NCBI RefSeq assembly: GCF_000023865.1
Contig: NC_013159.1
Coordinates: 4,118,001 to 4,182,000 of the forward strand
Length of the DNA stretch: 64,000 nucleotides
Source of the DNA: Saccharomonospora viridis DSM 43017
GTDB lineage: Bacteria; Actinomycetota; Actinomycetes; Mycobacteriales; Pseudonocardiaceae
Direction of reading: 5' to 3'
In this document: piece by piece, positions 37,100-46,576 of the stretch
Layout: each line of letters starts with the position of its first letter
Position numbering within the stretch: position 1 is the stretch's first letter
Position numbers and translations under genes: made by a program
Notes under the pieces: model-generated
Database searches by the model: none
What the model saw: only the letters and a program-made list of their open reading frames with translations
Told to the model about the DNA's origin: nothing

Positions 37100-37951
37100 T
37101 CAGCTCTCCGCCCGGTTGTCGAACAGCGCCAGCGCGGCGGCGGTGTTCGACGCGGGAACGTGGTAGACGTCGTGGATCCGCGTGATCTGCTCGTTCAGCG
37201 CACCACGCATGGTCAACCACATGACCAGCTCGAAGCCTTCCGAACCCGCGTCCCGGATGTAGTCCTCCCGGGTCAGCCCGGCCAGGTACTCGGGGTCGGT
37301 CTGGATCTTGTCGAGGAACATGCGGTCGAACTCGGGGTTGATGAGTCCGGCACGTTCACCCGCGAGCTGGTGGGACATGCCACCGGTACCGAACACCGCC
37401 ACCTTCACGTCACGCTCGTACGAGCGGATCGCCTCGCCGAGGGCCTTGCCCAGCTCGTAGCAACGCGCGGCGGTCGGCTGCGGGTACTGGAGGACGTTGA
37501 CCAGCAGCGGCACCACGGCACACGGCCACGCGTCCCCGGGCTCGGGGCAGTACACCGACAGGGGCACGGTGAGGCCGTGGTCGACGTCGAGGTTCTGGAT
37601 CGCCGTCATGTCGAACCCGGCGTCCACCAACTGCTGGAGCAGGTGGAACGACAGGTCGGGGTCACCCACGACATCGGGAACCGGACGCGGGCCGAAACCC
37701 TCGTCGGCGACCCGGTACTTGTCGGCCATGCCGATGGCGAACGTCGGCACCATGTCGATGTCGAGCGCGTTGGCATGGTCGTTGTAGACGATGATCGCGA
37801 CGTCGGGGCGGTGCTGGGCCATCCACTCCCGCGCCGGCCGGTAGCCGTCGAACAACGGCTTCCAGTACTCGTTGTCCGTCTTCCCGTTGTCCATCGCAGC
37901 GCCGATGGAGGGCACGTGCGAGGTCGCCAGACCCCAAATCACCTCAGCCAT
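37100..37951 (-). CDS. ligB: Class III extradiol ring-cleavage dioxygenase, beta (catalytic) subunit
   Basis: Fe(II)-dependent meta-cleavage of protocatechuate or gallate. 283 residues. All LigB metal and catalytic residues line up: His12 (TSHVPS), His59 (NDHAN), His194 (GGMSHQ) and Glu241 (GFELVMW), matching His12/His61/His195/Glu242 of Sphingobium LigB. It is the last gene of a six-gene operon; its ATG overlaps the ligA end by 8 bp. The rest of the operon points to gallate (or 4-oxalomesaconate-forming) use. Confidence 0.93.
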   Translation of the reverse strand: MAEVIWGLATSHVPSIGAAMDNGKTDNEYWKPLFDGYRPAREWMAQHRPDVAIIVYNDHANALDIDMVPTFAIGMADKYRVADEGFGPRPVPDVVGDPDLSFHLLQQLVDAGFDMTAIQNLDVDHGLTVPLSVYCPEPGDAWPCAVVPLLVNVLQYPQPTAARCYELGKALGEAIRSYERDVKVAVFGTGGMSHQLAGERAGLINPEFDRMFLDKIQTDPEYLAGLTREDYIRDAGSEGFELVMWLTMRGALNEQITRIHDVYHVPASNTAAALALFDNRAES

Positions 37952-38294
37952 TGGTCCGCCCTCCCGCTCGCATCATCGCGACGAATTCCTCTTCGGTCAT
38001 CCCGGTGAACACGCCACCGAGATACTGCATCGACTTCTTGTCGATCATCGCCAGCTTCAGGACGTAGAAGATGCTGCTGCCCAGATCGAGCATCTTCTTC
38101 CAGTCCCTGTCCAGCACGGCTTGCTTCTGTTCGGGGGTCAGTCCGAACTCGTCGCAGTAACCCGCCTCGTCGGCGCTGAACCGCTCCCGCGCGGCGGGGT
38201 CCCGCAACGACATGAACATCTTGTTGAGCTTGTAGCTACGCCGACTCGACTCGGCGTCGAACACGTGCGTACCCGGGACATTCACCCTGCTCAT
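37944..38294 (-). CDS. ligA: Extradiol dioxygenase alpha (small) subunit
   Basis: 116 residues (MSRVNVPGTHVFDAESSRRS). Helical LigA fold with SYKLNKMFMSL and DWKKMLDLGSSIFYVLKLA, which cap the LigB active site. It starts within the end of the upstream gene (ATGA overlap) and overlaps ligB by 8 bp, so the subunits are produced in step. A longer open frame upstream to 38447 is a shadow of the isomerase-like gene. Confidence 0.9.
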   Translation of the reverse strand: MSRVNVPGTHVFDAESSRRSYKLNKMFMSLRDPAARERFSADEAGYCDEFGLTPEQKQAVLDRDWKKMLDLGSSIFYVLKLAMIDKKSMQYLGGVFTGMTEEEFVAMMRAGGRTNG

Positions 38295-38575
38295 GAGGTG
38301 CCCCTCTCCTGCGGATGAGTCGCCAGCGGCTCCACTGTGATGTCCAGCCACGGCGCCATCGGCAGCGACATCAAAGCGTCGTGTAGCTGGGTCGCGTCGT
38401 CGGCCTCGTAAAGACCGATCGTGGCGTTGCGGCCGGGGACTCGCCACAGCCGCTTCAACACGCCCTGAGCACGAAGCTCCATGGCCCGCTCGCGTTCAGC
38501 GGCCCGGAGCCGTTCCCGCTCCTCCGGCGGTGTCGTCGGAGGCAACCGGTTCTCCGACCTGACCAAAAACTCCAT
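38291..38575 (-). CDS. Muconolactone delta-isomerase-like protein
   Basis: 94 residues of the small ferredoxin-like MIase family: MEFLVRSENRLP, AQGVLKRLWRVPGRNATIGLYEADD and the C-terminal MSLPMAPWLDITVEPLATHP. True CatC converts muconolactone in the ortho-cleavage pathway, which is not encoded here. In this operon it sits where a tautomerase of 4-oxalomesaconate (the GalD step) would be expected, so it may act on a ring-fission product instead. The operon context is clear; the reaction is inference. Confidence 0.8.
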   Translation of the reverse strand: MEFLVRSENRLPPTTPPEERERLRAAERERAMELRAQGVLKRLWRVPGRNATIGLYEADDATQLHDALMSLPMAPWLDITVEPLATHPQERGTS

Positions 38576-38608
38576 ATCGCCTCCTCGGCTCGTGCTACGG
38601 CGGGGCCG

Positions 38609-39316
38609 TCACTTCCCGGCGCACTCCAGCAAGAGGTCGGCGAGCGCCTTGGGCGCCGTCACCATCGCCTCGTGCCCGGTGTTCAACTCGTGGACCGGCC
38701 AGCCCTGCTCCCGGGCACGGTCGGCCTGGGCTCGGAACACCCGCATCCAGTCGACGCACTCGATGAACGTCGCGGGCACCTCGGTGCCCGCTCCGGTGAG
38801 GCGCAACGGATCGGTGTAGGTCTTCCACGGATGCGGGGTCAGCTTGGGCTGCAGCCAGTCGACGTCCGCCTGGTCGGTCACCCCGAGCACGGACAGCTTG
38901 CGGACGGGCACCAGCCATCCGAAGCCCTGTTCCTCCGCCGACGACGCCCAGTGGTGGGCGACCTCCTCGGGCAGCAGGTCCCGTGCCCGCTCGCCGTCGT
39001 CACCGACGAACGCGTCGAGGTACACGCGTCGGGCGATCGCGTCGGGGCACCGGTCGGCGACCCCGCTGATCACCTGGCCCGCGTAGCTGTGCCCGACCAA
39101 CACCACGTCCCGAAGTCCGAGCACGGTGATCAGCCGCACCACGTCCTCGATGTGGGTGTCGAGCCCCACGAGCGGGGAGAGCAGATGGCTCCGCTCGGAC
39201 AGCCCCGTGAGGGTGGGCGTGTACACGTCGTGCCCCGCCTCACGCAAGAACGGCGTGACCCTGTCCCAGCACCAGCCGCCGTGCCAGGCGCCGTGAACGA
39301 GAACGAAGGTACTCAT
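38609..39316 (-). CDS. Alpha/beta hydrolase in the ring-cleavage operon
   Basis: 235 residues. The oxyanion motif is VLVHGAWHGGWCWD; the nucleophile is Ser77 in GHSYAG; the base is probably the His in NTGHEAM. It belongs to the plant-type salicylate/jasmonate methylesterase-like group (HNL/EstC-like). Possible jobs here are release of gallate or protocatechuate from a methyl or other ester, or opening a lactone formed from the ring-fission product. It has no signal peptide, so it acts in the cytoplasm. Confidence 0.85.
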   Translation of the reverse strand: MSTFVLVHGAWHGGWCWDRVTPFLREAGHDVYTPTLTGLSERSHLLSPLVGLDTHIEDVVRLITVLGLRDVVLVGHSYAGQVISGVADRCPDAIARRVYLDAFVGDDGERARDLLPEEVAHHWASSAEEQGFGWLVPVRKLSVLGVTDQADVDWLQPKLTPHPWKTYTDPLRLTGAGTEVPATFIECVDWMRVFRAQADRAREQGWPVHELNTGHEAMVTAPKALADLLLECAGK

Positions 39317-39352
39317 GCGACCACCACCGTGACACGCTCGCGCATCCCGCGC

Positions 39353-40054
39353 TCACTCCTCATCGTCGTCATCGTCCACATAGGTCACACCAAGCTGCTC
39401 GAGCTTCTTCCGCATGCCGTAGAGGTCAAGGCCGAGCACACCGGCGCGGAACTGCTCACGTTTAGCCTGTTCGTTGGCCTCGCGTTCCTTCGCCTTGGCC
39501 GCGACCTCCGGTGCCTCCAATCGAGGCACGCACAACACGCCGTCGTCGTCGGCCACGATGACGTCCCCCGGCCTCACCTGGACACCCGCCAGCACGACGG
39601 GGACGTTCACGGAACCGGGGGTCGCCTTGACCGTGCCCTGCGCCGACACCGCCTTCGACCACACCGGGAAGCCCATCTCGGTCAGCTCGGCCACGTCCCG
39701 CACCCCGGCTTCGATCACCAGGCCACGTACGCCCCGGGCGGCGAGCTGAGTGGCGAACAACTCGCCGAACATGCCGTCCACCGACGGGGACGTCGTGGTC
39801 ACGACGAGCACGTCGCCGGGCCCGCACTGCTCGATGCAGGCGTGGATCATGAGGTTGTCGCCGGGATGGCTGAGCACCGTGACGGCCCGGCCCGCGATGC
39901 GGGCCCCCGGGTAGATCGGGCGCAGCACCGGCTCGGTCAGACCACGCCGTCCCATGGCCTCGTGCACGGTGGCCACACCGAGCCGCTGCAATTCGGCGAC
40001 CGCGTCCGGGTCCGGGCGCTTGTTCGTCCGGACGATGACGTTCCGGCTCACCAC
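39353..40054 (-). CDS. ligK: 4-carboxy-4-hydroxy-2-oxoadipate aldolase
   Basis: 233 residues of the RraA-like class II aldolase family (GalC/LigK/ProA). It splits 4-carboxy-4-hydroxy-2-oxoadipate into pyruvate and oxaloacetate, the last step of gallate and protocatechuate 4,5-cleavage, and may also decarboxylate oxaloacetate. Signatures are ATVHEAMGRRG, the active-site GVRDVAELTEMGFPVW (Arg and Asp) and VIVADDDGVLCVP. The tail is highly acidic (DDDDDEE). The GTG start overlaps the stop of the galB-like gene. Confidence 0.9.
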   Translation of the reverse strand: MVSRNVIVRTNKRPDPDAVAELQRLGVATVHEAMGRRGLTEPVLRPIYPGARIAGRAVTVLSHPGDNLMIHACIEQCGPGDVLVVTTTSPSVDGMFGELFATQLAARGVRGLVIEAGVRDVAELTEMGFPVWSKAVSAQGTVKATPGSVNVPVVLAGVQVRPGDVIVADDDGVLCVPRLEAPEVAAKAKEREANEQAKREQFRAGVLGLDLYGMRKKLEQLGVTYVDDDDDEE

Positions 40055-40788
40055 AGCTGCGCTCCCACGGTCGGGAAGGTCCGCTTGTAGGCCTCCGCGT
40101 ACTGCACCGAGCTCGGCGCCCCGTTACGCACGGCCTGCACACCACGCCGCATGCCGAGGTCGATGTAGTAGCGGACGAGGTGTTCCTGCGCGGTCATGCA
40201 CTTCATCGCCTCGACCTTCCGGTCGAACACAGGCGTGATGTCGAGCAGCAGTTCGGGGTAGAAACCGCACACCTCGGGCTGGTGCGGCTCGAACTGCAAC
40301 ACCTGCGGCGCGCCCAGCGCCGGCGTGCTCGGGTCGGCGCCGTGGGCCTGGGCGATCATGCGGGCGGTCAGCGTCGTCTCGTGCGCCTGGTTGTGGTCCC
40401 GGTTGTACGGGTCATTGGCCACGTGCGTCAGCAGCACGTCGGGCTTGCGTTCCCGGATGATGCCGGCGATCCGGTCGACCACCTCGGGTTCCACCCGCAG
40501 CGGGTAGTCACCGAGATCGAGGAACTCGATCGTGGCGCCGAGTACCTCCGCGGCCTTGGCCGCCTCCTCGTGGCGGGCCTGCTTGACCCGCTCCACGGTC
40601 ATGCCTTCCTGCTTCCACAGCCCCCGCGACTCGCCGCGCTCTCCGTACGACAGACACAGCACGTGCACGGGGGAGCCGTGATGCGCGGTCAGCGCGATGG
40701 CACCACCCGCCCGCCACACGAAGTCACCGGAGTGGGCACTGATCACCAACACCGACGGAGCGGCCGAATTCTGAGACGTCGTGCTCAC
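40048..40788 (-). CDS. galB: 4-oxalomesaconate hydratase, PIG-L (GalB) type
   Basis: Hydrates 4-oxalomesaconate to 4-carboxy-4-hydroxy-2-oxoadipate. 246 residues of the metal-dependent PIG-L superfamily, whose AHPDD motif appears here as AHSGD (18-22), as in the Pseudomonas GalB group; DHNQAHE is the second metal site. This type replaces the amidohydrolase LigJ. It is the first gene of the operon, and a PIG-L hydratase next to the aldolase and LigAB is strong evidence for a 4-oxalomesaconate route. Confidence 0.85.
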   Translation of the reverse strand: MSTTSQNSAAPSVLVISAHSGDFVWRAGGAIALTAHHGSPVHVLCLSYGERGESRGLWKQEGMTVERVKQARHEEAAKAAEVLGATIEFLDLGDYPLRVEPEVVDRIAGIIRERKPDVLLTHVANDPYNRDHNQAHETTLTARMIAQAHGADPSTPALGAPQVLQFEPHQPEVCGFYPELLLDITPVFDRKVEAMKCMTAQEHLVRYYIDLGMRRGVQAVRNGAPSSVQYAEAYKRTFPTVGAQLW

Positions 40789-40965: not shown

Positions 40966-41646
40966 TCAGCCGGGCGGGGAGACGAGGCCTTCCCTGATGG
41001 CCAACAACGCGGCCTGGGTGCGGGAGGACAACTGGAGCTTGCTCAGCACGTTGCTCACGTGGGTGCGGGCGGTCCGCTCGCTGATCACCAGCCGGTCGGC
41101 GATCTCCCGATTGGACAGTCCCTGCCCCACGAGGACGAGGATGTCGCGTTCCCGCGCCGTCAACGACGTCACCCCCACCTGCGGTGACGCCATCCTGCGC
41201 GCGAGCAGCCTCGCCACGGCGGCGTCCAGGTGCACCTCGCCCTTCACGGCCGCCCGGACCGCTGTGGCGACCTCCTCGGGTTCGGCGTCCTTGAGCACGT
41301 ACCCCGCCGCGCCCGCCGAGAGTGCGGCATGTACGCGTTCGGCCTCGCTGAAGCTGGTGAGCACGACGACTTTCACATCGGGGTACGAGGCGAGGATGGA
41401 CCGCGTGGCCTCGATGCCGTCCAACCGCGGCATCTGGAGGTCCATCAACACGACGTGCGGCATGGGGTCACCGACGACGTGCCGTTCGTTCAACAGGTCC
41501 ACCGCTTCCTGACCGTCGGCCGCCTCGCTGACGAGTCGGAGATCCGGCACCGTCTCCAGATAGGCACGCAATCCACGGCGGACGATCGCGTGGTCGTCGA
41601 CCACCATCACGCGCACGGTCTCGGGCGCTGTGCTCCGCTCGGCCAT
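40966..41646 (-). CDS. Two-component response regulator, NarL/FixJ family
   Basis: 226 residues. Receiver domain with the acidic pocket VVDDH and phospho-acceptor Asp69 (VLMDLQMP), Thr/Ser at VVVLTSFSE and Lys at YVLKDA. C-terminal LuxR-type DNA-binding domain (LTARERDILVLVGQGLSNREI). The ATG shares its A with the stop of the histidine kinase gene (TGATG). It lies directly upstream of the ring-cleavage operon and probably controls it or the transporter. Confidence 0.92.
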   Translation of the reverse strand: MAERSTAPETVRVMVVDDHAIVRRGLRAYLETVPDLRLVSEAADGQEAVDLLNERHVVGDPMPHVVLMDLQMPRLDGIEATRSILASYPDVKVVVLTSFSEAERVHAALSAGAAGYVLKDAEPEEVATAVRAAVKGEVHLDAAVARLLARRMASPQVGVTSLTARERDILVLVGQGLSNREIADRLVISERTARTHVSNVLSKLQLSSRTQAALLAIREGLVSPPG

Positions 41647-43199
41647 CAGGACGCCTCCTTCATCGCGTAGGAGCCCTGCGCGGGCAGGCTCACCGCCACC
41701 GTCCAACCACCCGAGGGACGCGGTCCCGCGACCAACCGTCCCCGCCATCGTTCGGCACGTTCCCGCATGGACTGAAGGCCGAGACTCTCTCGTCGGAAGG
41801 CGGTACGGTCACGTGGCTTCTGCCCTTTGCCACGTCCGTTGTCGGATATCTTCACCAGCAACCCCCGATGATCGTGCTCCGGGGTCGTGATCGTGACCTC
41901 GGCCTTGGTCGCGTTGGCGTGCTTGATCACGTTGTGCAGGGCCTCCTGCACGATGCGGTAGACGTCCTCGGCCACTTCGAGATCCAGGTCGAGGGCATCG
42001 CCCACGGGGGCACGCACGTCGATCGTCAGTCCCGTGCGCGCCTGCAGGCTCGCGGCATGCGACCGCACGGCGTCCACGAGGCCGCGTTCGGCCAACTCCA
42101 TCGGACGTAGCTCGAACACGAGGCCACGCAGATCGGCGAGCGCGTTCTGGGACAGTTCCGCCAATTCCTGTGCCCCACCGCGCAGTTGGCTCAGATCGGC
42201 GTCCGGGCGTTCCAGTTGGGCCCGCAACGCCTTGGCCTGCATCCCCATCGAGAACAGGTGCTGCACCACGGAATCGTGCAGGTCCCGGGCGAGTTTGCGC
42301 CGTTCGTCGAGCTGGGCGCGCGACCGGGTACGGGTGAGCAAAGCCGCCGTCTCGATGGCGACCGCGGCGTGGTCGGCCATCGCGGAGAGGAACGTCAGCG
42401 AGCTCGGCCCCGGGTCCTCGCCCGGCGCGTAGTAGGCGTTGATGATCCCGACCGTGCGTCCTCGCACCACGAGCGGCATCGACACGAAGCTGTCCCAGTC
42501 GGGCCAGTCCATGATCACGTGCAGTGGTTCCCACGCGGGGTCCGCCATGATGACCGGCTTGCGGTGGAGCACGACCACCGGTTCACCGTGTTCGAGCACT
42601 TCCAAAAAGCGGATGTCCGCGCCGCGCCGCCTGCACTCGGCGAGCCGCTCCACGAAGTCGGTCGTCTCGCCGAATCCCGCCATACCGAGCAGTCGCAGTT
42701 CGTCGCGCGGGTCGTCGACGGCGAGGATCTGGGCCGCGGAGATGGCGGTGGTGGTGCACACTTCCCGTGCCATCGCATCGAGCGTCGCGCGCAACGACCC
42801 CGAATCGGCCACGCTCGACGCCGCGCGTGTGATGGCCGTGAGCCGCTCCTGTTGAAGCAGGATCTCGGTGATGTCGGTGAACCAGACCGCCACACCCCCG
42901 TTAGCCAGCTCGGACACGCGGTACTCCAGGTACCGCCTGCGTCCATCGGGCGCCGTCCACTCGGCGCGCTCCATCTCGTCCGAGCCCGAAGTCACGTTCC
43001 GCCGCGAGACGTCGAAGGGGGAGCGAGTGCCGAGCAGTCGGTCTTCCGGAACCCCGAGGATGCGCACACCTGCCGGATTGACCGTCACGAAATGACCGCG
43101 GTCGTCGAGCACTGCGAGTCCGTCACCGGACAACTCCACCAGCTCGCGCAACACCGCGGTGTCGAACGTGGTCTCGCTCCGGGCAGCGGTATGGCTCAT
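41646..43199 (-). CDS. Sensor histidine kinase with PAS and GAF domains
   Basis: 517 residues: PAS (about 15-115), GAF (about 120-285), HisKA_3 dimerisation domain with phospho-acceptor His308 (ARDLHDSVVQHLF), and an HATPase domain (EALHNVIKHANATKA; ISDNGRGKG). There are no membrane segments, so it senses a cytoplasmic signal, perhaps an aromatic acid, or redox state. The ATG has GGAGG seven bases upstream. It pairs with the response regulator that follows. Confidence 0.92.
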   Translation of the reverse strand: MSHTAARSETTFDTAVLRELVELSGDGLAVLDDRGHFVTVNPAGVRILGVPEDRLLGTRSPFDVSRRNVTSGSDEMERAEWTAPDGRRRYLEYRVSELANGGVAVWFTDITEILLQQERLTAITRAASSVADSGSLRATLDAMAREVCTTTAISAAQILAVDDPRDELRLLGMAGFGETTDFVERLAECRRRGADIRFLEVLEHGEPVVVLHRKPVIMADPAWEPLHVIMDWPDWDSFVSMPLVVRGRTVGIINAYYAPGEDPGPSSLTFLSAMADHAAVAIETAALLTRTRSRAQLDERRKLARDLHDSVVQHLFSMGMQAKALRAQLERPDADLSQLRGGAQELAELSQNALADLRGLVFELRPMELAERGLVDAVRSHAASLQARTGLTIDVRAPVGDALDLDLEVAEDVYRIVQEALHNVIKHANATKAEVTITTPEHDHRGLLVKISDNGRGKGQKPRDRTAFRRESLGLQSMRERAERWRGRLVAGPRPSGGWTVAVSLPAQGSYAMKEAS

Positions 43200-43311
43200 G
43201 GTCACACCTCCCGCCTCGCTCACCTGGCGTCCGTGCGCGGGACTTTCGCGCGTGACGCCACTCTCAACATATGTGAGGAACGCCGTGTCGAGCACACTCG
43301 CCACCCGGAGC

Positions 43312-43378: not shown

Positions 43379-44707
43379 TCAGTTCTTCACGGAAGCGGAT
43401 TCCGGCGTCGAATCGGAACCACGGTTGACCTTCAGACCGATCACGGTGAGCAGGCTGACCAGTGACAGCCCGGTGACGTACAGTGCCAGTGGGGTCGACG
43501 AGCCGTACGCCCCGAAGAGCGCCGTCGCGACGATCGGCGTGAGCGCACCACCGAACATGCCGCCGATCTGGTAGGCGATGGAGATCCCGCTGTAACGCAC
43601 CCGGACGTCGAAGATCTCGGTGAACAGGCCACCCTGGGCACCCGCCATGATGCCCTGCACCACGGCGGCGACCGCGAACGCGAGGAACGCCAGCTCCACC
43701 TTGCCCGTGTTGACCAGCGCGAACATGGGGAACGGCCACACGACCGCCGTGAGGGCCCCGATGGCGTAGATGAGCTTGGAGCCGAACCGGTCGGACAGCA
43801 GCGCCGCGATGACGATCGTGACCATCCACACGACCGTGGAGGACATGATCAACGCCAGCAGCGTGCTGCGCTCGTAGCCGACCTCCGTGGTCCCGTACGT
43901 GAGCATGTACACGGTGACCGTGTAACCGACCGCGGGCGGGGCGATCGCGGCGAGACTGCCCAGCACGAGGTTGCGGGGATGCTGCTTCACCAGCTCCACC
44001 AGCGGAACCTTGCTGACCTTGTCCTGCTTCTTGACCTTCTCGAAGGCGGGCGCGTCCTCCAGCTTGCTGCGCACGATGAAGCCGAGGATCACGAGCAGGA
44101 AGCTGATCAGGAACGGGATGCGCCAACCCCAGGACAGAAAGTCCTCGTCGGTCAGACCGGACACGGCGAGGAACGCGAGGTTGGAGGTCAACACACCCAT
44201 CGGCACGCCGAACTGGGCGAAACTGCCGTAGATCGCACGCCGCTTCGGGGTCGCGTGTTCGGTGGCGATGAGAACCGCACCGCCCCACTCACCACCGACA
44301 CCGAAGCCCTGCGCGAGTCGGAGGATGACGAGCAGCAACGGTGCGGCGACACCGATGGCGGCGTACGTCGGCAACAGGCCGATCAAGAACGTCGACCCAC
44401 CTGTGAGCACCAACGTCAGCACCAACATCGGCTTACGGCCGAGTCGGTCACCGAAGTGTCCGAACAGCGCCGCACCCAGTGGCCGGGCGATGAATCCCAC
44501 CGCGAATGTCCCGAACGCGGCGAGAGTTCCCGCGACCGGCGAGAACTCCGGGTAGAACAACGTTCCGAACGCCAGCGCCGCGGCGGTACCGAAGATGTAG
44601 TAGTCGTACCACTCGATCGAAGTGCCGACGAAACTCGCCGCGAAGATGCCCTTCTTCGGTGGTCCGCCCTTCGCCTGAGCGCTCGAGCTTGTAGTAGATG
44701 TCTGCAC
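43379..44707 (-). CDS. MFS transporter, metabolite:H+ symporter (MHS) family
   Basis: 442 residues, about twelve membrane segments. MHS signatures: FVGTSIEWYDYYIFGTAAAL, GHFGDRLGRKPML and RLAQGFGVGGEWGGAVL, with TPKRRAIYGSFAQFG. This family (ShiA, KgtP, ProP, PcaT) imports organic and aromatic acids or osmolytes. Next to a ring-cleavage operon, import of gallate, protocatechuate or a related acid is likely. The GTG at 44707 has GAGGAG nine bases upstream; a frame starting 22 codons earlier is rejected. Confidence 0.9.
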   Translation of the reverse strand: MQTSTTSSSAQAKGGPPKKGIFAASFVGTSIEWYDYYIFGTAAALAFGTLFYPEFSPVAGTLAAFGTFAVGFIARPLGAALFGHFGDRLGRKPMLVLTLVLTGGSTFLIGLLPTYAAIGVAAPLLLVILRLAQGFGVGGEWGGAVLIATEHATPKRRAIYGSFAQFGVPMGVLTSNLAFLAVSGLTDEDFLSWGWRIPFLISFLLVILGFIVRSKLEDAPAFEKVKKQDKVSKVPLVELVKQHPRNLVLGSLAAIAPPAVGYTVTVYMLTYGTTEVGYERSTLLALIMSSTVVWMVTIVIAALLSDRFGSKLIYAIGALTAVVWPFPMFALVNTGKVELAFLAFAVAAVVQGIMAGAQGGLFTEIFDVRVRYSGISIAYQIGGMFGGALTPIVATALFGAYGSSTPLALYVTGLSLVSLLTVIGLKVNRGSDSTPESASVKN

Positions 44708-45115
44708 GGCTGCGTACTCCTCTGGACGCCAAGAACTGCGCGCTAGGCATGGACGCGGTCCGACAACCGGCACCTGTGTGGCCGCCGACTTCGGACCGCT
44801 GTGCCCGTACGGCTGCCAGTCCCAGACCTGTGCTGTCTGTGGCCGCCGGTCCCAGACCCGCGTCTACGTGTGGTCTGCCGGTCCTCGATATCCAAACCGC
44901 TGCATGCTCGAAAAACGCGAGTCCACTGACGTGCCTGAATGAGGTCTTCGGTGGTACCGCCGCTACGTCATATGTCGCGCACGCCCCCAACGCCCCGGTC
45001 AGAGAAAACGGGTTGGAAGTCACAAGTGGGCTCGCGAGCGCGCTGATTAACGTGGATCTCAACAGCATTCCACCGTGGGGGAAGGGTGGACCCTTCGACC
45101 GTGCAGGGAAGAACA
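44708..45115. promoter_or_regulatory. 408-bp divergent gap with four degenerate ~31-bp-spaced repeats
   Basis: No gene is seen. Related 14-mers begin at 44784 (GCCGACTTCGGACC), 44815 (GCCAGTCCCAGACC), 44845 (GCCGGTCCCAGACC) and 44877 (GCCGGTCCTCGATA), spaced 31, 30 and 32 bp, which places them on nearly the same face of the DNA three turns apart. They lie just upstream of the transporter gene (minus strand) and could bind the nearby response regulator. The half nearer 45115 shows nothing notable. Confidence 0.45.
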
Positions 45116-46576
45116 ATGACGTCTTTCACCGAGATCAAAACCGACCTGTTCGTCGACGGTGAGATACGCACCGCCGACGACACGCTCACGGTGATCGATC
45201 CCGCCGACGGCGAAACCGTCGTCGGCTACGCCGCCGCGGCGAGTGCCCAGCAGGCTTCCGACGCCGTCGCCGCCGCACACCGGGCCTTCCCCGAGTGGGC
45301 GGCGCTGTCACCGCAGCAGCGGGCGGAGCTCATCACGGCGGCACTGCCGTCCTTGGAGGCCGATCGGCAGGCCACGGCCGAGATCCTCACCCGCGAGAAC
45401 GGCAAGATCCTGTCCGAGTCGGTGGTCGACTCGATCGTGTTCGCCCACCGCTTCAAGCTGGCGACCGACCTCGTCGACGAAGTGGAGGCGGCACGGGAAC
45501 TCCCGGCCCCGCCCTACCGCACCCGCATCAGCCACCGCCCCCTCGGTGTCGTCACGATCATCGTGCCGTTCAACTGGCCACTGGCCATCCTCGCCGCGTC
45601 GCTGCCGTACGCGCTGCTCGCGGGCAACACCGTGGTGGTGAAGCCGCCACCGACCGCGCCGCTGGCCACCGTCCGCACGGTTCAGCTCGTCGCGCAGTCG
45701 CTTCCGCCGGGCGTGCTGAACGTCGTGACGGGGACCGACGCGGAGATCGGTCCGGCGCTCATCCAGGACGACCGGGTGAAGAAGATCTGCTTCACCGGAA
45801 GTCCCGGGGGCGGTAAGAAGATCATGTCGATGGCGGCGAACTCACTGACCCGCGTGGCACTGGAGCTGGGCGGTAACGACCCGGCCATCGTGCTCGACGA
45901 CGCCGAACTCGACGCCGAGGCCATGAAGCGGCTCTACTCCGGCATCTTCGACTCCACCGGGCAGATCTGCATGGCCGTCAAGCGCCTCTACGTGCACCGC
46001 TCCCGGTACGACGAGGTCGTGGAGGGGCTGTCGGAGCTGCTCGCCACCGCCCGCCTGGGCCACGGCCTGCGCGAGGACGTCACCATGGGTCCGCTGCACA
46101 GTGCCCGGCAGAAGGAGTACGTGCAGGAGCTCCTCGCCGACGCCGTCAAGGTGGGCGCCCGAATCGAGGAGTTCGGACAACCCGCCTCGGGCGCGGACCT
46201 GTCCCGCGGCAACTTCCTGCGGCCGTCGCTCGTCCTCGACCCGCCCGAGAAGTCCCGGGTGGTGCAGGAGGAGCAGTTCGGACCGACCGTGCCGATCCTG
46301 CCGTTCGACTCCGAGGACGACGTCGTGGCACGGGCCAACGACAACTGGTCGGGTCTGGCGTCGTCGGTGTGGACCCGCGATCTCGACCGCGCCGCCGCGC
46401 TCGCCGACCGACTGCACACCGGATACACGTTCATCAACGCCCACAGCGCCGCGAACCTCGACGAACGCGCGCCGTTCGGCGGGTTCAACCACAGCGGCAT
46501 GGGTCGAGAGATGGGTGTCGAGGGACTGCGGGAGTTCATGGACACCCACGCCGTCGGATTCCCGGTGTCGGAGTAA
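45116..46576 (+). CDS. NAD(P)-dependent aldehyde dehydrogenase of the aromatic island
   Basis: 486 residues. Asn153 (PFNWP), cofactor motif FTGSPGGG, general base Glu250 (LELGGNDP) and nucleophile Cys285 (TGQICMAVKR). Substrate is unknown. The position, divergent from an aromatic-acid-type transporter, suggests oxidation of an aromatic aldehyde such as vanillin, protocatechualdehyde or syringaldehyde, but this is inference. The ATG at 45116 with AGGGAAG upstream is preferred to one ten codons earlier. Confidence 0.87.
   Translation: MTSFTEIKTDLFVDGEIRTADDTLTVIDPADGETVVGYAAAASAQQASDAVAAAHRAFPEWAALSPQQRAELITAALPSLEADRQATAEILTRENGKILSESVVDSIVFAHRFKLATDLVDEVEAARELPAPPYRTRISHRPLGVVTIIVPFNWPLAILAASLPYALLAGNTVVVKPPPTAPLATVRTVQLVAQSLPPGVLNVVTGTDAEIGPALIQDDRVKKICFTGSPGGGKKIMSMAANSLTRVALELGGNDPAIVLDDAELDAEAMKRLYSGIFDSTGQICMAVKRLYVHRSRYDEVVEGLSELLATARLGHGLREDVTMGPLHSARQKEYVQELLADAVKVGARIEEFGQPASGADLSRGNFLRPSLVLDPPEKSRVVQEEQFGPTVPILPFDSEDDVVARANDNWSGLASSVWTRDLDRAAALADRLHTGYTFINAHSAANLDERAPFGGFNHSGMGREMGVEGLREFMDTHAVGFPVSE

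Follow-up and report, generated by a model that had tools for sequence, protein, structure and literature searches.

The window analysed here, a stretch of 64,000 nucleotides from Saccharomonospora viridis DSM 43017 (contig NC_013159.1, positions 4,118,001 to 4,182,000), carries on its minus strand a six-gene operon (37100-40788) that probably encodes the ring-opening part of a syringate and 3-O-methylgallate pathway, as judged from gene content and sequence comparison. The operon begins with a galB-like gene for a hydratase of the PIG-L family (40048..40788; PF02585, 86 bits), whose product has 4-oxalmesaconate hydratase as its top PDB match (5cgz, E 3e-75), followed by ligK/galC for 4-carboxy-4-hydroxy-2-oxoadipate aldolase (39353..40054; RraA-like, 158 bits), which exceeds two NCBIfam equivalog cut-offs (NF006731, 350 bits against 179; TIGR02798, 327 bits against 304.5). 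These are followed by an alpha/beta hydrolase (38609..39316; Abhydrolase_6, PF12697, 75 bits), proposed as the esterase of the methyl ester CHMOD in the role of MgaC or DesC, and by a 94-residue protein of the muconolactone isomerase family (MIase; 38291..38575; PF02426, 114 bits), proposed as an isomerase or tautomerase of 4-carboxy-2-hydroxymuconate (CHMA) in the role of MgaD or DesD. The last two genes are ligA and ligB, for the small subunit (37944..38294; PF07746, 130 bits; TIGR02792, 124 bits, cut-off 108.6) and the catalytic subunit (37100..37951; PF02900, 232 bits; NF009903, 393 bits, cut-off 317) of an extradiol dioxygenase; the family scans of LigA were started at 38297, one codon 5' of the ATG at 38294. 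All Pfam scores are well over their cut-offs, so that the six genes and their order stand as given in the preliminary description. Its statement that most junctions overlap also holds, with overlaps at three of the five (galB/ligK 7 nt, MIase/ligA 4 nt, ligA/ligB 8 nt) and gaps of 36 and 33 nt at the others.

The same description had read the operon as an extradiol route without LigC and LigI, leading from gallate or a similar trihydroxybenzoate to 4-oxalomesaconate, with the MIase-like protein in place of the tautomerase GalD. The extradiol route to acids of the 4-oxalomesaconate type is supported, and the absences extend to the whole genome, a single contig of 4.3 Mb. LigI gave no genome-wide match and LigC no close homologue (best match 31% identity over 140 residues in the N-terminal part, with two weaker matches). 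The LigI and LigC queries work in actinomycetes, since in tblastn searches they recovered homologues of 73–76% and 55–57%, respectively, in four Demequina genomes. Similarly, the PrpF family, to which GalD and LigU belong, had no match in the genome; this search was positive in two of 14 controls and in 14 of the 21 relatives whose genomes carry the MIase-like gene. LigB reached 319 bits against the gallate dioxygenase equivalog NF009904, below its cut-off of 412, although this model spans a fused protein and disfavours a two-subunit enzyme.

Candidate O-demethylases are encoded elsewhere in the same genome, which is the carrier of DEMETHYLASES; they are homologues (82% and 83%) of both LigM/DesA-family genes of a Rhodococcus opacus cluster. 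The LigM homologue lies beside metF, purU and folD and scored 937 bits against the curated model for vanillate/3-O-methylgallate O-demethylase (cut-off 580), whereas the second protein, for which the syringate enzyme DesA is the best model, did not reach the DesA cut-off. A Rieske protein 74% identical to VanA of a related cluster (L018) is also present. As in the mga and des systems, a LigAB-type dioxygenase is linked here to a hydrolase of the alpha/beta type and to an isomerase, the latter from a family other than that of DesD or MgaD.

In the pathway that we favour, syringate would first be O-demethylated by DesA-like and LigM enzymes, which depend on folate, and LigAB would open 3-O-methylgallate to CHMOD. 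The alpha/beta hydrolase would then act as a methyl esterase, converting CHMOD to CHMA with removal of methanol, and the MIase-family protein, with conserved Glu27 as a proton shuttle, would convert CHMA to the keto acid used downstream, which GalB would hydrate and LigK cleave to pyruvate and oxaloacetate. The gene content, the absences, the co-occurrence and the linkage are observed, and every reaction step, including the role of Glu27, is predicted from them. The main substrate is probably not gallate. The operon would provide a concrete gene set for actinomycete growth on syringyl lignin acids and the MIase clade would receive a pathway role.

A contig search with the MIase, which reaches close relatives only, yielded 21 loci (L008–L028), all from Actinomycetota as labelled, and in 20 of them the hydrolase gene immediately precedes the MIase-like gene, the exception being Conexibacter (L028). 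Fifteen of the 21 contain LigA and LigB, either of the type seen in the window or of a 54% type, and the LigB of the Microtetraspora locus (L015) is divergent (30%). Twelve of the 21 loci include genes for O-demethylases of the LigM/DesA family or VanA. In the R. opacus plasmid, found by LigB, a LigM/DesA-family gene, metF, purU, folD, ligA, ligB, the hydrolase and the MIase are consecutive, and LigM is the sole O-demethylase in the PDB list of the first of these (E 4e-133). In Microtetraspora the genes VanB, galB, ligK, the divergent ligB, VanA, hydrolase and MIase share one strand, and a Blastococcus locus (L010) contains a run of a P450-like gene (labelled by eye), a LigM/DesA-family gene, hydrolase, MIase, ligA, ligB and metF. 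The R. opacus record names the MIase-clade protein only as a 'muconolactone Delta-isomerase family protein'.

Loci found through the MIase are biased towards it, and the association was therefore evaluated again in 394 genomes of the class sampled by LigB. A LigB match at E ≤ 1e-40 was obtained in 13 genomes, and the loci were sorted by neighbours other than the MIase. Three genomes had ligC and ligI beside ligB, two had a fused GalA with ligU, and eight, including the genome of the window, had neither in the stretch examined (1.5 kb on each side, about 10 kb for seven of these eight, one of which was limited by its contig). The MIase clade was present in all eight of the latter and in none of the other five (Fisher p = 0.0008), with genera shared among these genomes, which are hence not independent (by genus, five with and four without); the eight positives include the genome of the window, and G336 and G411 appear to repeat L024 and L017 of the first set, and in the negative genome G132, 150 of 197 MIase candidates were scored. 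Folate one-carbon or O-demethylase genes lie in the stretches of six of the eight MIase-positive genomes, the others being the window's own locus and G220. The hydrolase-MIase pair lies about 15 kb (G123) and 12 kb (G230) from ligB, and in G220 the hydrolase follows ligB and does not precede the MIase. In a tree of LigB proteins, the window LigB falls in a clade of 16 rows (support 99/99). In every row the hydrolase and MIase are at most 6 kb away, and ligC and ligI are near in none; these labels are biased, since 15 of the 16 rows are the window or MIase-found loci, the R. opacus row being the one obtained through LigB. A second PF02900 protein is encoded in the window's own genome (L083; G000 4271678-4272313).

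The MIase-like protein belongs to the Pfam MIase family (114.1 bits, cut-off 26.7), as do CatC and 5-chloromuconolactone dehalogenase (ClcF), and shares with them Glu27, W44, R45 and H87, which are invariant in all 31 aligned sequences. Ala occupies position 27 in PDB 3zo7, and Glu27 is a residue that we take to be catalytic, although the literature search did not confirm it. It scored only 80.1 bits against the CatC equivalog TIGR03221 (cut-off 130.6), which the second MIase of the same genome (154.3) and the Comamonas CatC (151.9) pass and ClcF (127.5) just misses, and it lies outside any cat operon, with no muconate cycloisomerase or catechol 1,2-dioxygenase gene in the operon. The MIase-like proteins form a separate clade of 23 (support 97/88) apart from CatC and ClcF, in a tree with several long branches. 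The second MIase gene adjoins an intradiol dioxygenase gene at 2.045 Mb, in a catA-catC type arrangement. A second CatC is ruled out by the equivalog score and this other gene, and a role different from that of CatC is supported. MIase-family genes were also observed in other settings: in Rhodococcus WB1 (L091 2387-4081) the domain lies within a 564-residue protein adjoining a thiamine-pyrophosphate enzyme gene, and in Streptomyces chartreusis (L093 397-2674) a separate MIase gene adjoins such a gene.

In the hydrolase, S77 and H215 are invariant in 22 of 22 sequences. Its 48 PDB matches include salicylic acid-binding protein 2 (SABP2) and polyneuridine-aldehyde esterase, both of which act on methyl esters, as well as hydroxynitrile lyases, haloalkane dehalogenases and others. 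Among plasmid relatives of the hydrolase (217 records), three besides that of R. opacus were inspected, none with informative neighbours. A Novosphingobium plasmid (L142 11084-17746) carries ligAB, folD, purU, a metF-like gene, an alpha/beta hydrolase and a LigM-like gene, with no MIase match, and is a proteobacterial parallel; the window hydrolase is only weakly related to its hydrolase (22% over 85 residues, hhalign probability 48%).

Three other explanations have to be weighed against the syringate and 3-O-methylgallate pathway. If LigAB cleaved gallate, the MIase-like protein would perform the GalD tautomerisation and the hydrolase would be an accessory, an explanation that agrees with galB and ligK in the operon, with the absence of any PrpF match in the genome and with a LigM that could make gallate. 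It leaves the hydrolase without a task, despite its place upstream of the MIase gene in 20 of the 21 loci, and the relatives place the module beside O-demethylase and folate one-carbon genes. PrpF also co-occurs in the 14 of 21 MIase carriers noted above. The step of the MIase is thus, in general, an additional one to that of GalD, and a plain replacement of GalD across the clade is ruled out by this co-occurrence. LigU genes lie inside the retrieved locus in L016, L019 and L022 and 11–20 kb from ligB on the same contig in all six Blastococcus. Two actinomycete loci of the fused GalA type, one of them with a GalA checked against the curated cut-off, carry ligU, ligK and galB, and this MIase clade has no member in either genome among the candidates scored (150 of 197 in one of them, G132). 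We consider the gallate explanation unlikely. The earlier gallate assignment is accordingly not supported as regards the main substrate, the wording 'similar trihydroxybenzoate' was close (3-O-methylgallate had been named for testing), and the substitution for GalD fails as a general role, although the step in the window's own genome could still be covered by the MIase-like protein.

A lactone chemistry, in which the hydrolase opens the lactone PDC or another lactone instead of LigI while the MIase-like protein shifts the double bond of a lactone, would resemble CatC and the enol-lactone hydrolase of the beta-ketoadipate pathway. The substrate of CatC is a lactone, and PcaD, which works alongside it, belongs to the alpha/beta hydrolases. 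LigI is not matched in the genome, and CHMOD is reported to cyclise to PDC, its half-life being about 70 min (PMC12314914). Nevertheless, the PDB matches of the hydrolase include the methyl-ester hydrolases and hydroxynitrile lyases described above, and four Demequina genomes retain the hydrolase-MIase pair despite having LigI. We consider this explanation unlikely as well. Very improbable is a protocatechuate 4,5-cleavage with unlinked or unrelated enzymes for the dehydrogenase and lactonase steps, for instance the nearby aldehyde dehydrogenase oxidising CHMS directly. LigA is over the protocatechuate LigA cut-off and the aldehyde dehydrogenase is close by, but neither LigI nor a close LigC was found, the window LigB clade is separate from the LigB linked to ligC and ligI, and the genome has two more Dioxygenase_C genes (1.338-1.340 Mb), separate from the catA-catC type locus and unlinked to the operon, that look like pcaGH, so protocatechuate probably has an ortho route in this genome. 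The lack of LigI and of a close LigC, together with these pcaGH-like genes, led us to reject protocatechuate 4,5-cleavage.

Within the syringate and 3-O-methylgallate pathway, the MIase-like protein may, as a tentative and rather doubtful option, take the CHMA dienol directly to 2-keto-4-carboxy-3-hexenedioate (KCH), the substrate of the hydratase, and thus perform both the CHMA and GalD steps. Such a change would be a vinylogous proton shift like that of muconolactone isomerase itself. PrpF was not matched in the genome of the window or in seven of the 21 MIase carriers, which are drafts of unstated completeness, two of them titled metagenome-assembled genomes; galB is present in the window and in five of these seven loci. 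In PrpF-less genomes the MIase-like protein may cover both steps, and if so, this activity would explain why no PrpF is found in the window's genome and the galB-bearing Nonomuraea, Microtetraspora and L008. The galB-bearing L022 does have PrpF. If true, the MIase-like protein would represent a third unrelated fold recruited for this isomerisation, and the MIase family would gain a new reaction.

Several observations weigh against the favoured pathway. The DesA-like protein scores 576 bits, under the curated DesA cut-off of 800, the O-demethylase genes of the genome are unlinked to the operon, and the Rieske protein has no vanillate model match in NCBIfam. No O-demethylase gene lies in the examined stretch of nine of the 21 MIase loci, including the closest relative L008, nor in that of G220, and in G152 the MIase and hydrolase sit on different contigs. 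The genome encodes a LigM able to convert 3-O-methylgallate to gallate, which may thus be formed as well. For the hydrolase triad, no clear acid residue emerged. Additionally, the MIase of the four Demequina loci and of Conexibacter L028 has no LigAB within 10 kb of it, and because the Demequina hydrolase-MIase pair adjoins a BphC-type dioxygenase gene, the chemistry of the MIase-like proteins may be broader than CHMOD. MgaD and DesD are also reported to be non-essential (PMC12314914). In one Demequina locus (L011 7046-12085), the pair stands beside the BphC-type gene and an FMO-like gene, and ligC, ligI, ligA, ligB, ligJ, ligU and ligK are encoded elsewhere in that genome, away from the pair.

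The pathway is known in kind, and the novelty lies in the family of the isomerase and in the set of actinomycete genes. In Pseudomonas sp. NGC7, MgaAB opens 3-O-methylgallate to CHMOD, the alpha/beta hydrolase MgaC yields CHMA and the SnoaL-like MgaD isomerises it, followed by GalD, GalB and GalC; an mgaC mutant accumulates PDC and an mgaD mutant reaches about half density (PMC12314914). That mgaABCD and galBCD set resembles the window operon in its two-subunit LigAB-type dioxygenase, methyl-ester hydrolase, small isomerase, GalB and GalC, and differs in its SnoaL-like isomerase, in the presence of GalD and in the O-demethylase VanAB within the operon (PMC12314914). In Novosphingobium aromaticivorans, with LigAB, LigM and DesA, folate-dependent O-demethylases are accompanied by an alpha/beta hydrolase, DesC, paired with an isomerase, but DesD is a glutathione-S-transferase (PMC12997858); the proposed roles of DesC and DesD are the demethylation and cis-trans isomerisation of CHMOD (PMC12997858, PMC6888825, PMC8091115). 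The gal cluster (GalA, GalB, GalC, GalD) shares GalB and GalC/LigK homologues with the window operon, which has no fused GalA or GalD and additionally has the hydrolase and the MIase-like protein. The lig/pcm operons of protocatechuate 4,5-cleavage share LigA, LigB and LigK, whereas LigC, LigI, LigJ and LigU are not in the window operon. If the assignment is true, members of three unrelated families (glutathione-S-transferase, SnoaL-like and MIase) serve the same isomerase step, plausibly because actinomycetes, to our knowledge, lack glutathione.

No paper was found that places an MIase-family protein in this pathway, in a literature search that was thin on subscription journals, and none in that search gave a gene-level account of an actinomycete route for syringyl lignin acids. 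The NGC7 report already predicts from homology that some Actinomycetes can use syringate (PMC12314914), and Rhodococcus ruber R1 VanAB is reported to convert syringate to 3-O-methylgallate and no further (PMC9867520), so an actinomycete VanAB can feed such a route. If the hydrolase were blocked, PDC, which serves as a polymer building block, would be expected to build up, as described for the mgaC mutant (PMC12314914).

Upstream of the operon lie a NarL-type response regulator gene (40966..41748, minus strand; Response_reg and GerE), the first gene upstream, and its partner sensor histidine kinase (41646..43304, minus strand), named from sequence and position; a kinase/response-regulator pair occurs in 14 of the 21 related loci, and the response regulator is probably the regulator of the operon. 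A convergent LacI-type gene, whose end is 5 nt from ligB, is probably not the regulator of the operon because of this orientation and because it is divergent to a gene that, by appearance only, looks like a sugar kinase. A promoter scan gave no signal above chance. The same genome has another kinase/response-regulator pair (L078 153-2557), which resembles that of the window and lies beside a major facilitator superfamily (MFS) gene and the DesA-like gene described above. The MFS transporter of the window (43379..44773, minus strand), of the metabolite/H+ symporter type (TIGR00883, 402 bits, below the 443 cut-off), is 48% identical to that of the R. opacus cluster and probably serves aromatic-acid uptake. 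The divergent aldehyde dehydrogenase (45086..46576, plus strand; PF00171, 449 bits) has homologues of 53–68% in related clusters and 91% in L008, and is possibly an enzyme for syringaldehyde or vanillin.

A glyoxalase-fold gene resembling catechol 2,3-dioxygenase was observed in six loci (L132 9832-10806, L133 8359-9270, L134 7763-8701, L016 1170-2108, L019 6817-7761 and L022 8291-9241). Its neighbours are ligU on one side and ligJ on the other in the three Blastococcus loci, in Nocardioides L016 and in Kineococcus L019. In L022 it is flanked by ligU and the hydrolase gene, and in a Roseomonas plasmid such a gene also follows ligAB and a hydrolase gene.

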